From the NCBI RefSeq assembly GCF_012935715.1, contig NZ_CP052860.1:5518001-5582000 (forward strand): a stretch of DNA of 64,000 bases. Direction: 5' to 3'. Under the pieces are notes generated by a model, which was given only the letters and a program-made list of their open reading frames with translations, had not been told where the DNA came from and made no database searches. Each line of letters opens with the position of its first letter. The stretch's first letter is position 1. Origin of the DNA: Pseudomonas sp. ADAK13. GTDB lineage: Bacteria; Pseudomonadota; Gammaproteobacteria; Pseudomonadales; Pseudomonadaceae. The translations under genes and the position numbers were made by a program. Positions 42,921 to 45,946 of the stretch are shown here, one piece after another.

Positions 42921-43682
42921 TCAGGTGTCAGCCGAATTTTGCAACGTCAACACCTCAAACCCGTCCCGCGTCACCGCCACGGTATGTTCCCACTGCGCCG
43001 ACAGACTGTTATCCCGCGTCACCACCGTCCAGCCATCCTTCAGGCTGCGCACCTTGGCGCTGCCCTGGTTGAGCATCGGCTCAATGGTAAACACCATGCC
43101 TTCGCGCAGTTCCATCCCGGTACCGGGGCGGCCGAAGTGCAGGATCTGCGGGTCTTCGTGCATCTCGCGGCCAATGCCGTGCCCGCAGTATTCGCGCACC
43201 ACGCTGAAGCCGTTGCTCTGGGCATGGCTCTGGATGGCGTAGCCGATATCCCCCAGGCGTGCGCCGGGCTTGACCTGGCGGATGCCGGCCCACATGGCTT
43301 CAAAGGTCATTTCCACCAGGCGCCGGGCCTTGGGCGCGACGTTGCCAATCATGTACATCTTGCTGGAGTCGGCGATATAGCCGCCTTTCTCCAGGGTGAT
43401 GTCGATGTTGACGATATCGCCGTCCTTGAGCACGTCCTTGGCACTCGGCATGCCGTGGCACACCACCTCGTTGATCGAGGTGTTGATGCAGAAGGGGTAG
43501 TCGTACTGGCCCAGACTCGCCGGCCGTGACTGCAGGTCGTTACGAATGAACGCTTCCACGGCGCTGTCGATCTCAAGCGTCGACTGGCCAGCGGCGACAT
43601 AGCCATCGAGCAGGGTGAATACCTTGGCCAACAGGCGGCCGGCTTCGCGCATGAGCACGAGTTGGTCAGCGGTCTTGATCAT
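42921..43682 (-). CDS. map: type I methionine aminopeptidase
   Basis: 253 residues, full length. The five metal ligands are present: Asp94, Asp105, His168, Glu201 and Glu232; the substrate His76 and His175 are also conserved (VVCHG, GHGIGREMHEDP). It removes N-terminal Met from proteins cotranslationally. In pseudomonads a separate housekeeping map lies in the rpsB-tsf region, so this is probably a paralogue. It starts inside the stop of the ParD-like gene (43679-43682 overlap), a coupled operon. Confidence 0.92.
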   Translation of the reverse strand: MIKTADQLVLMREAGRLLAKVFTLLDGYVAAGQSTLEIDSAVEAFIRNDLQSRPASLGQYDYPFCINTSINEVVCHGMPSAKDVLKDGDIVNIDITLEKGGYIADSSKMYMIGNVAPKARRLVEMTFEAMWAGIRQVKPGARLGDIGYAIQSHAQSNGFSVVREYCGHGIGREMHEDPQILHFGRPGTGMELREGMVFTIEPMLNQGSAKVRSLKDGWTVVTRDNSLSAQWEHTVAVTRDGFEVLTLQNSADT

Positions 43683-43882
43683 TGGCTGCGCCCCCGGATG
43701 AGGTCTGGCTTGTCCAGCAGCAGTTTGTTGATCAGGTCGTTATAGGCCAGGTGCGGATTGAGTTCCGCAAGCAGGCCGATCTTGATCCAGAACTCGGCCT
43801 GGGCGTTGATGGAACGGTCCATGGTGGCGCTGGCCAGGCGGAGTTGTTCGTGCAATTGGTCGGTGATCTTGACGATGCCCAT
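43679..43882 (-). CDS. ParD-like antitoxin-type protein
   Basis: 67 residues from ATG 43882 (MGIVKITDQLHEQLRLASAT), matching the ParD_like family: a short beta strand and helices of a ribbon-helix-helix followed by an extended tail (AELNPHLAYNDLINKLLLDK). It is the first gene of an operon with the methionine aminopeptidase, with a four-base overlap. No RelE/ParE-type toxin accompanies it. An inverted repeat operator-like element lies 33-49 bp upstream (43915-43931). Confidence 0.78.
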   Translation of the reverse strand: MGIVKITDQLHEQLRLASATMDRSINAQAEFWIKIGLLAELNPHLAYNDLINKLLLDKPDLIRGRSQ

Positions 43883-43904
43883 GAGCTTCACTGTGCAGAG
43901 TGGA

Positions 43905-43931
43905 TATACAAAGCGTATACGTTTCGTATGC
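43905..43931. promoter_or_regulatory. operator-like repeats upstream of the ParD-like gene
   Basis: GTATACG (43915-43921) and CGTATGC (43925-43931) form an inverted repeat with one mismatch around TTT; a third TATAC half-site sits at 43905-43909. The layout is typical for autoregulating antitoxins. It also lies 27 bp from the -35 of the divergent ilvA-type promoter, so one protein could affect both. Confidence 0.55.
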
Positions 43932-43957
43932 TTAGAGTAAAGCCTGACGTTTCGCCA

Positions 43958-43986
43958 TTGACTTGCCCGGTGGCCCCGGTTAATTT
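43958..43986 (+). promoter_or_regulatory. sigma-70 promoter for the attenuator-controlled ilvA-like gene
   Basis: TTGACT (43958-43963), 17-bp spacer, TAATTT (43981-43986). The expected start site is about seven bases on, at 43993, which is the A of the leader peptide ATG. A leaderless transcript is therefore predicted. Confidence 0.6.
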
Positions 43987-43992
43987 TGATTC

Positions 43993-44058
43993 ATGACATT
44001 TCAAACCTTTCGTTGCCAGCCAAGCATTATTACCGCCATTCCTCATTTGGCGGGATAG
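43993..44058 (+). CDS. leader peptide of the attenuator, 21 codons
   Basis: MTFQTFRCQPSIITAIPHLA plus Gly, then TAG. It contains Ile-Ile-Thr-Ala-Ile (codons 12-16: ATT ATT ACC GCC ATT), the kind of regulated-residue cluster seen in ilv leader peptides. No Shine-Dalgarno is visible, but the predicted transcription start coincides with the ATG, which suggests leaderless initiation. An in-frame stop at 43987 rules out earlier starts. Codons 14-16 overlap one arm of the first hairpin of the attenuator. Too short for normal gene calling. Confidence 0.55.
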   Translation: MTFQTFRCQPSIITAIPHLAG

Positions 44059-44103
44059 CGCACGGCTGTACCCAAACCCGCCCTAGAGGCGGGTTTTGTT
44101 TTT
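44033..44103 (+). promoter_or_regulatory. transcription attenuator upstream of the ilvA-like gene
   Basis: Four ordered segments can be read. 1: CCGCCA at 44033-44038, within the Ile codons. 2: TGGCGGG at 44048-44054. 3: CCCGCC at 44077-44082. 4: GGCGGG at 44088-44093. Pairing 1:2 is a short hairpin, 2:3 a possible antiterminator, and 3:4 (extended AAACCCGCC/GGCGGGTTT, 44074-44096) a terminator followed by TTTTGTTTTT. Stalling at the Ile codons would free segment 2 and allow read-through. Confidence 0.65.
44074..44103 (+). terminator. attenuator terminator hairpin
   Basis: Nine-base-pair stem AAACCCGCC/GGCGGGTTT with loop CTAGA and a T-rich tail. It is upstream of the ATG at 44141 and not after a gene in this orientation, which is why it is read as an attenuator. 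Confidence 0.85.
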
Positions 44104-44140
44104 CCGTCTCCAGGGCCCTGTAAACACCCAGGAGACATCC

Positions 44141-45160
44141 ATGAGTACCCGCCCGGCGCGCCACACCCACGATTCGGGGCTGCTTGAGCACTACGTGAAG
44201 AAGATCCTCGCTGCCCCGGTCTACGACCTGGCGGTGCGCACGCCGTTGCAGGCGGCGCCAGCGCTGTCGGCGCTGCTGGGCAATCAGATCCTGCTCAAGC
44301 GTGAGGACCTGCAACCGACCTTTTCCTTCAAGATTCGCGGCGCCTACAACAAGCTGGTGCAGCTCAGCGCCGAGCAGAAAGCCCGGGGCGTGGTCACCGC
44401 CTCGGCAGGCAATCATGCCCAGGGCGTCGCGCTGGCCGCTCGGGAACTGGGGATCAAGGCGACCATCGTCATGCCGTGCAGCACCCCGGAGCTGAAAGTA
44501 CTGGGTGTGCGTTCCCGAGGCGGCGAGGCGGTGTTGCACGGGGAAAGTTTTCCCTTTGCATTGGCCCATGCGTTGCAGTTGGCTGAGGCCACGGGCAGCA
44601 CCTTTGTCTCGCCATTTGACGACCCGGAGGTGATTGCCGGGCAGGGCACCGTGGCCATGGAAATATTGCGCCAGCAGCAGGGCGCGCTGGACGCGATCTT
44701 TGTTCCGGTGGGCGGTGGCGGCCTGATCGCGGGCATCGCCGCCTACGTCAAATACCTGCGCCCGGAAGTGCGCATCATCGGTGTCGAGCCCGAAGGCTCC
44801 AGTTGCCTGCTGGCGGCCTTGCGTGCCGGCGAGCGTGTGGTGTTGCCGAGTGTCGACAGCTTTGCCGATGGCACCGCCGTCGCCCAGATCGGCGCCTACG
44901 GTTTTGAAATCTGTCGGCACCACGTTGATGAGGTGATCACCGTCAGCAATGACGAACTGTGCAGCGCCATCAAGCTGATCTACGACGATACCCGCTCGAT
45001 CACCGAGCCTTCCGGCGCGCTGGCCGTGGCCGGTATCTGCAAGCATGTCGCGAAGACCGGTATCCAGGGCCAAACATGGGTGGCGATCAATTCGGGAGCC
45101 AATATCAACTTCGATAGTTTGCGACATGTTGCAGAACGAGTGGCGGCGCAGGAGGGTTAA
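44141..45160 (+). CDS. threonine dehydratase, catalytic domain only (IlvA-like)
   Basis: 339 residues from ATG 44141 with CAGGAG upstream. A PLP fold-type II enzyme: Lys64 in FSFKIRGAYNK, phosphate loop VPVGGGGLIAG and SAGNHAQGVALAA. It deaminates threonine (or serine) to 2-oxobutyrate, the first step of isoleucine synthesis. It ends after SGANINFDSLRHVAERVAAQ, exactly where full-length biosynthetic IlvA would continue into two ACT-like domains, so Ile feedback inhibition should be absent. Expression is apparently governed by the attenuator directly upstream. Confidence 0.88.
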   Translation: MSTRPARHTHDSGLLEHYVKKILAAPVYDLAVRTPLQAAPALSALLGNQILLKREDLQPTFSFKIRGAYNKLVQLSAEQKARGVVTASAGNHAQGVALAARELGIKATIVMPCSTPELKVLGVRSRGGEAVLHGESFPFALAHALQLAEATGSTFVSPFDDPEVIAGQGTVAMEILRQQQGALDAIFVPVGGGGLIAGIAAYVKYLRPEVRIIGVEPEGSSCLLAALRAGERVVLPSVDSFADGTAVAQIGAYGFEICRHHVDEVITVSNDELCSAIKLIYDDTRSITEPSGALAVAGICKHVAKTGIQGQTWVAINSGANINFDSLRHVAERVAAQEG

Positions 45161-45676: not shown

Positions 45677-45946
45677 ATGCTTTCGGATCTGGAACTACGC
45701 GGCATTATTGAAGGAAGTTTCCTGCCTAAACGTTGTGAAGTCACCAAGGCCTCAGACGCCTCGCTGACGGTCAAGGTTTATCACGAGATCGACCATGACC
45801 GGGTAGACCTGGTGGTCACCGGCATTTGCGCCAACAAGCTCGACAGCAGTCGGGCGATCTGCAACTTGATTACCGAGTTGCGCGAAGACCTCAAGCACAC
45901 CCATACCCCGGCACTCAAGAGAGCCGGAGCGCGTCCCTTCTATTAA
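45677..45946 (+). CDS. DUF1652 family protein
   Basis: 89 residues: LSDLELRGIIEGSFLPKRCE, then VDLVVTGICANKLDSSRAIC and NLITELREDL. DUF1652 is a small family found almost only in pseudomonads, of unknown function, often transcribed alone with a long 5' leader as here. A strong Shine-Dalgarno (AAGGAGAGG) precedes the ATG. Confidence 0.87.
   Translation: MLSDLELRGIIEGSFLPKRCEVTKASDASLTVKVYHEIDHDRVDLVVTGICANKLDSSRAICNLITELREDLKHTHTPALKRAGARPFY

Follow-up and report, generated by a model that had tools for sequence, protein, structure and literature searches.

P9, a conserved RNA upstream of a threonine dehydratase gene in Pseudomonas, as a probable leaderless isoleucine attenuator

The leader of the threonine dehydratase gene

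The DNA analyzed here, called the window throughout, is a stretch of 64,000 nucleotides from Pseudomonas sp. ADAK13 (contig NZ_CP052860.1, positions 5,518,001 to 5,582,000). Its forward strand carries a gene for a threonine dehydratase of the IlvA type (339 aa; 44141-45160), preceded by the Shine-Dalgarno (SD) sequence AGGAG at 44130-44134. The encoded protein consists of the catalytic PALP domain alone: NCBI models of the long form (499-521 positions) match it to about position 339, and it has no counterpart to their C-terminal part. A DUF1652 gene (45677-45946) lies 3′ of ilvA. On the minus strand, divergent from the ilvA leader, a ParD-like antitoxin gene (PF11903) overlaps the start of an M24 metallopeptidase gene (42921-43891), and between the ParD-like gene and the leader there is, by eye, an inverted-repeat-like sequence, AGCGTATACGTTTCGTATGCTT (43906-43940), which is a possible operator.

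The leader lies on the same strand as ilvA and is headed by a −35 element, TTGACT (43958-43963), followed after 17 nt by a −10 element, TAATTT (43981-43986), and 6 nt further on by an ATG whose A (43993) is the putative transcription start, as promoter spacing and the C at −1 suggest. This ATG opens an upstream open reading frame (uORF) of 21 codons, MTFQTFRCQPSIITAIPHLAG* (43993-44058, stop codon at 44056), which holds Ile-Ile-Thr-Ala-Ile and in which the two adjacent isoleucine codons, ATT ATT, occupy 44026-44031. Four short segments follow: segment 1, CCGCCA (44033-44038), can pair with segment 2, TGGCGGG (44048-44054), the last base of which lies 2 nt before the stop; segment 3, CCCGCC (44077-44082), can pair either with segment 2, forming an antiterminator, or with segment 4, GGCGGG (44088-44093), forming a terminator; and the T tract TTTTGTTTTT (44094-44103) stands directly 3′ of segment 4. 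A terminator scanner reports a rho-independent terminator at 44074-44103 (stem 44074-44082/44088-44096, 9 pairs, loop of 5, plus the T tract), where 0.8 such sites are expected by chance in the region. Promoter, start codon, isoleucine frame and all four segments had been proposed from the letters alone, and every coordinate of this original prediction proved right on reading the sequence. A promoter scanner finds no consensus sigma-70 promoter upstream of the uORF, TAATTT agreeing with the consensus at 3 of 6 positions, so the promoter call rests on conservation.

Folding bears out the overlapping stems and the terminator that had been claimed. The leader (43993-44104, 112 nt) folds at −39.6 kcal/mol (z = −4.2), as low as none of 200 shuffled sequences, with pairings 1:2 and 3:4 in its minimum-energy structure, and the piece 44042-44085 folded alone adopts 2:3 (−16.0). 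A composite search for the promoter spacing, ATG, Ile-Ile frame, stop and terminator, its criteria set after the site was known, had a single hit in the 64 kb, the site itself, and no hit in 100 Markov-resampled windows.

The leader belongs to Rfam family RF00624, Pseudomonas sRNA P9, whose covariance model matches 44023-44097 at 86.4 bits over model positions 1-74 of 74, above the gathering score of 43. The match starts inside the uORF and omits the promoter, the ATG and the first ten codons. At gathering score Rfam has no second match in the window, and in particular no riboswitch or T-box; a riboswitch or T-box identity was rejected on this ground. P9 reportedly came from a 2006 prediction of P. 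aeruginosa small RNAs accompanied by a Northern blot, and we take the P. aeruginosa P9 to be located at PA1326. The Rfam entry files P9 as an sRNA gene (‘Gene’), whereas we read the window element as an attenuator.

The original prediction knew of no described attenuator of this kind in Pseudomonas; no description came to light, but the RNA itself was already catalogued as P9. Among the literature matches listed, from a search that scarcely covered subscription papers (attenuator surveys included), none concerns an attenuator before Pseudomonas ilvA or P9 as an attenuator, and the same search did not return the accession RF00624. The main text of a P. aeruginosa Term-seq paper (PMC8297930) mentions no ilvA, PA1326 or leader peptide, that of a Genome Biology attenuator survey (PMC2965389) mentions no ilv or threonine, and neither a Pseudomonas ilvA attenuator nor P9 as an attenuator was found in passages of three further papers (PMC3349714, PMC8395346, PMC5542712). 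What is new here is the reading of P9 as a leaderless isoleucine attenuator, together with the set of genes headed by P9 leaders; the P9 RNA as an Rfam entry is already known, and it is its filing as an sRNA gene that we dispute.

Distribution and conservation of the leader

RF00624 has one place in the window’s genome and matches in 224 of 298 genomes of the genus (217 over the cut-off), in 71 of 148 genomes and 8 of 19 genera of a family sample (67 over the cut-off), and in 15 of 274 genomes of a class sample (3 over the cut-off, the window’s genome among them). R1, a covariance model made from 46 leaders, matches 7 of 369 class genomes, where by eye five places (including that of the window’s genome) have leader anatomy and two are terminators. 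In the window’s genome R1 has one strong place only; the next matches score at most 27.6 bits, and these were rejected as leaders, being by eye ordinary terminators. Among 20 further loci, 11 were parsed as leaders, three more (L121, L122 and L133) appear to be leaders by eye, and six hold terminators only.

From 105 fetched loci we took 87 as leaders, 86 of them distinct. Left out were 16 matches below 35 bits without leader anatomy (L054-L056, L093-L105) and also L035 and L076, both of which fit that anatomy. A uORF ATG 20-42 nt before the Ile codons is in frame in 86/86 distinct leaders and occurs in the other two frames in 1/86 and 4/86; the in-frame ATG was part of the leader definition, and none of the 87 leaders failed on it. 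The promoter placement is conserved too: in the 73 distinct leaders of the ilvA class, TTGAC lies 35-38 nt 5′ of the uORF ATG in 71 and TAnnnT starts at −14 to −12 in 72, with C at −1 in 95%. An SD-like 4-mer precedes the uORF ATG in 1 of the 86 leaders (1/73 of the ilvA class, 0/13 of the others) and in none of 31 further leaders, as expected of a leaderless start, and an SD is present, by a looser test, at 84/86 downstream gene starts. Taken together, the in-frame ATG, the promoter spacing, the C at −1 and the absence of an SD form a leaderless signature, and the uORF is apparently a conserved leaderless reading frame. The distance from ATG to Ile pair is 24, 27, 30 or 33 nt (33 in L069).

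Because the 87 leaders had been recognized partly by their Ile codons, we tallied these codons in each of the 67 family-sample places over the cut-off, parsing from the terminator backwards and without reference to Ile. An ATG frame ending at segment 2 is present in 67/67, which agrees with the expectation that relatives keep the ATG. The companion expectation, that they keep the Ile codons, held in part: the Ile pair is found in 62/67, and the remaining five (L133, L212, L218, L221 and L223) have Met-Ile-Met-Thr-Ala-Ile, in which two Ile codons are kept but are not adjacent, Met having replaced one Ile. This Met-Ile-Met group is the chief result against a strict Ile-pair rule and lowers our confidence in the isoleucine reading. 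Among weaker matches, L121 and L118 have single, separated Ile codons and L115 has three in a row.

The remainder of the peptide drifts. In 156 close pairs of leaders the codons before the Ile pair differ 195, 170 and 225 times at first, second and third positions, with 150 synonymous and 331 non-synonymous codon changes, and in L038, L039, L040, L042 and L071 the peptide ends in WRAC* owing to a gap of one base in the loop, while the Ile pair, the stems and a near stop are kept. From the codon drift and these frameshifted loci, selection seems to act on the Ile codons and the RNA rather than on the peptide. The two codons of the pair are spelled ATT in 102 and 101 of 104 leaders, some of which were selected by ATTATT; Ile codon use in six genes of the window is ATC 77, ATT 25 and ATA 3.

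Stem 1:2 covaries. In alignment A1 (46 leaders) the structure of 1:2 with 3:4 has 91.5% of its cells paired, against 37-54% in slid versions, and 32 two-sided changes against 6.7 in shuffles; one 1:2 pair is G-C in 34 leaders, A-U in 10, G-U in 1 and unpaired in 1. We take pair counts from A1 and from direct parsing, since alignment A2 misplaces segment 3 in many rows, and prefer A1 for this pair, as the 65/35 division of G-C and A-U among parsed leaders is inflated by a search pattern that fixed A and U in some of them. Pairing 2:3, which relatives had been expected to keep, is complementary in 46/46 leaders and paired in 276/276 cells of A1 (slid versions 35-76%), with alternation between C-G and U-G and no two-sided covariation; shuffles score equally because the 2:3 columns hardly vary. 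Given such invariant columns and the lack of two-sided change, conservation of 2:3 could stem from 1:2 and 3:4 alone.

Among 109 distinct leaders the stop begins 2 nt past the end of segment 2 in 92 and lies inside the 1:2 loop in 9. When the ribosome is stalled at Ile and the transcript extends as far as segment 3, 2:3 is predicted in 109/109 of these leaders, and with a ribosome at the stop codon 3:4 is predicted in 109/109; since the parser required segments 2, 3 and 4 and some leaders came from an exact-pattern search, these folds speak for the sufficiency of the model, not for selection. Once segment 4 is present beside a stalled ribosome, the minimum free energy favors 3:4 over 2:3 in 104/109. 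Because equilibrium prefers 3:4 when the terminator is present, 2:3 would have to form first, and the attenuator model depends, in these predicted folds, on the order of RNA synthesis.

Genes behind P9-type leaders

An IlvA match is present at 73 loci: 30 encode the short form (336-359 aa), 42 run past the fetched stretch and one (L026) meets a stop at 233 codons. P. aeruginosa is described as having two IlvA paralogs, PA0331 and PA1326 (PMC9239102). In the window’s genome a second IlvA is encoded by a 507-codon frame (G000:C1:2634681-2635661, L169) without an R1 match. Of the 74 P9-negative genomes of the genus, 20 were examined, and each of these has a single IlvA match at E <= 1e-60, in a frame of at least 507 codons; in one genome, G085, the sole IlvA match at that threshold is the leader-linked one. 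In a tree of 101 IlvA rows, 3 changes of the leader label are required, and well supported branches force at least 2 of them; the leader stands mostly on a second IlvA copy and, in one clade (L002-L010, L019, L021 and others), on the main type. As the controlled IlvA of the window’s clade is without the C-terminal region found in the long form, attenuation may be the main isoleucine feedback on that enzyme.

Weaker matches and second copies in the genus are followed by genes for an NTF2-like protein (SnoaL_3/DUF4440) or an AAA_33 P-loop protein (116.9 bits). An exact pattern containing no ATG or promoter, ATTATTACCACC-N3-14-GGTGGG-N15-44-CCCGCC, was run on the GTDB genome set and occurs there in 36 places, in Pseudomonas, Achromobacter, Massilia, Methylomonas, another Methylococcales record, Microbulbifer, Stenotrophomonas, Sideroxydans, Sulfuriferula, Propionivibrio, Desulfuromonadaceae and an alphaproteobacterial record; beta-proteobacterial records are also among the taxa with the leader before NTF2-like or AAA_33 genes. 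An in-frame ATG lies closely 5′ of the Ile pair in 36/36 places, and the next gene is NTF2-like or AAA_33 in 35/36, the remaining place (L176) having another P-loop gene that resembles the one at L092. The 31 distinct pattern leaders include 25 with TTG[AC] 33-38 nt 5′ of the ATG and none with an SD-like 4-mer. When 15 loci of this wider set were tested, 12 reached the Rfam P9 gathering score.

The genes occur as leader-ilvA, leader-NTF2-ilvA, leader-NTF2-kinase, leader-kinase and leader-NTF2, and as a fusion of NTF2-like protein and kinase. Across the loci collected, NTF2-like and AAA_33 genes are combined at 18 and NTF2-like and IlvA genes at 9, counts in which L062 and L164 are the same place and records may overlap; at L187, L189 and L199 (the first and last of which are close relatives) the P9-type leader is followed by a single gene whose product, about 290 aa long, joins an NTF2-like and an AAA_33 domain. 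Similarity to YybH (2gxf, E 3e-42) is seen in the NTF2-like domain. The AAA_33 protein was considered as a homoserine kinase and rejected, model NF040667 matching four proteins at 17-27 bits with a cut-off of 197. A distant P9-like leader at L118 (genome G487, 1501-1618) stands before a gene named by eye as a GNAT-like acetyltransferase.

The leader had been described as an attenuator for an IlvA-type enzyme. It does precede ilvA, but homologous leaders also precede NTF2-like and AAA_33 genes, so it is not peculiar to that enzyme. A broader reading, to which we give even odds, is that the P9 leaders form a single ancient family of leaderless isoleucine attenuators, spread across the proteobacteria, and mark an undescribed metabolic module of threonine dehydratase, YybH-kind NTF2-like protein and AAA_33 kinase. 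If it were true, the NTF2-like and AAA_33 proteins would act on a metabolite of the threonine/isoleucine branch, and the leader would have moved between genes, including onto the main ilvA type in one clade of the genus.

Proposed mechanism, alternatives and known attenuators

We read the window element as a ribosome-controlled transcription attenuator for isoleucine, with a probability of about 0.78. A short conserved uORF with codons for the end product and a rho-independent terminator precede the gene; pairings 1:2, 2:3 and 3:4 are mutually exclusive, segment 1 adjoining the control codons and segment 2 the stop. The original prediction had called this a classic attenuation design, and the conservation of ATG, Ile codons and 2:3 complementarity in relatives supports that interpretation. 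In the proposed mechanism RNA polymerase would start on or beside the A at 43993, the first letter of the uORF ATG, and the 5′-terminal AUG would be loaded by a ribosome without an SD. With plentiful Ile-tRNA the ribosome would reach the stop, 2 nt past segment 2, and mask segment 2, leaving the 3:4 terminator to form and only the short P9 RNA to be made; what is catalogued as an ‘sRNA’ would on this view be the leader in its terminated form. With scarce Ile-tRNA the ribosome would stall at ATT ATT, directly 5′ of segment 1, and mask segment 1, upon which segment 2 would pair with nascent segment 3, the terminator would be pre-empted and ilvA would be transcribed. An untranslated uORF would allow both 1:2 and 3:4 to form, and transcription would terminate. 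From this arrangement we infer Ile as the signal and the direction of regulation, with read-through rising on isoleucine starvation.

The same promoter spacing, ATG, Ile codons 5′ of segment 1 and three stems are common to all gene classes, while the peptides otherwise differ (variants include IITAIPHLAG, IITTFT, IIPTLDTRVG, IITTISPMVG and IIIIP). An arrest-peptide model was dropped because the residues other than those of the Ile codons vary between gene classes. The shared elements behind differing peptides point to codon counting by a ribosome, which suits these sequences more than arrest by the peptide, an sRNA acting in trans or ligand binding by the RNA would. Counting against the attenuator reading, some of the homologous leaders precede genes with no known isoleucine link (NTF2-like, AAA_33).

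The best surviving alternative, though an improbable one, is that the uORF senses something other than Ile-tRNA: threonine, a general slow-down of translation, or an antibiotic, as leader peptides of resistance genes do. Threonine is encoded within segment 1, Met-Ile-Met replaces the Ile pair in the five family-sample places, the downstream AAA_33 kinases show weak Zeta_toxin similarity and, in one of two scanned, sub-cut-off similarity to chloramphenicol phosphotransferases, and the gene at L118 is GNAT-like. Yet the threonine is swapped for Pro or Ile in L051, L060, L061 and L092, the Ile codons 5′ of segment 1 are the codon feature most shared by ilvA, NTF2-like and AAA_33 leaders, the leader within the genus mostly precedes the enzyme that makes the isoleucine precursor, and the peptide varies across gene classes in a way unlike that expected of an arrest peptide.

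We consider it somewhat more improbable that P9 is a small RNA that acts in trans and has a terminator of its own, its proximity to ilvA being incidental or secondary. The Rfam filing as ‘Gene’ would suit such an RNA, and S. meliloti rnTrpL, as described in PMC7298713, shows that terminated leaders can act in trans; but a trans-acting RNA would need neither the ATG, Ile codons and stop frame kept in all 86 distinct leaders nor the placement, in distant taxa, directly 5′ of a gene from a small set of families. P9 may nevertheless have a trans role in addition to cis attenuation. Least credible, indeed very improbable, is a conserved terminator and hairpin regulated by a protein or metabolite that binds the RNA, with an open frame by chance: the near invariance of 2:3 would suit it, but the intervening codons drift and the frame, the position of the start codon and the promoter spacing do not, and at gathering score Rfam reports P9 and no riboswitch or T-box in the window.

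The isoleucine attenuator reading supplies a function that can be tested for an Rfam ‘sRNA’ found in about three quarters of the sampled genomes of the genus (224/298) and suggests that P9 is better filed as a cis-regulatory leader. The leaders would also form a large natural set of apparently leaderless sensor uORFs, useful for studying ribosome loading on 5′-terminal AUGs, and the shared leader is a functional lead for two uncharacterized protein families, NTF2-like and AAA_33.

Attenuators with leader peptides are textbook regulation. The leader of E. coli thrABC has mixed Thr and Ile codons before genes of the threonine pathway, whereas in P9 the Thr codons fall within segment 1 and only some of them are conserved. 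The ilv genes of E. coli have a leader-peptide attenuator, and the trpL leader peptide of S. meliloti has Trp codons. Leader-peptide attenuators have also been described before ilvBNC in Corynebacterium (PMC11857589) and before ilvB1NC in Mycobacterium, with a leader of 166 nt in M. tuberculosis (PMC13236596). The P9 leader resembles these ilv attenuators, that of E. coli included, in having branched-chain codons, alternative hairpins and a terminator before genes of branched-chain biosynthesis; it differs in that they precede acetohydroxyacid synthase operons, whereas the Ile pair of P9 precedes threonine dehydratase or NTF2-like/AAA_33 genes, and in that its uORF is apparently leaderless. 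In this last respect it is like the leaderless trpL attenuator of S. meliloti, whose rnTrpL transcript has the ATG of a 14-aa leader peptide at its 5′ end (PMC7298713), as the window transcript would begin on the uORF ATG; the likeness is one of description, and unlike the window leader rnTrpL precedes trpE(G).
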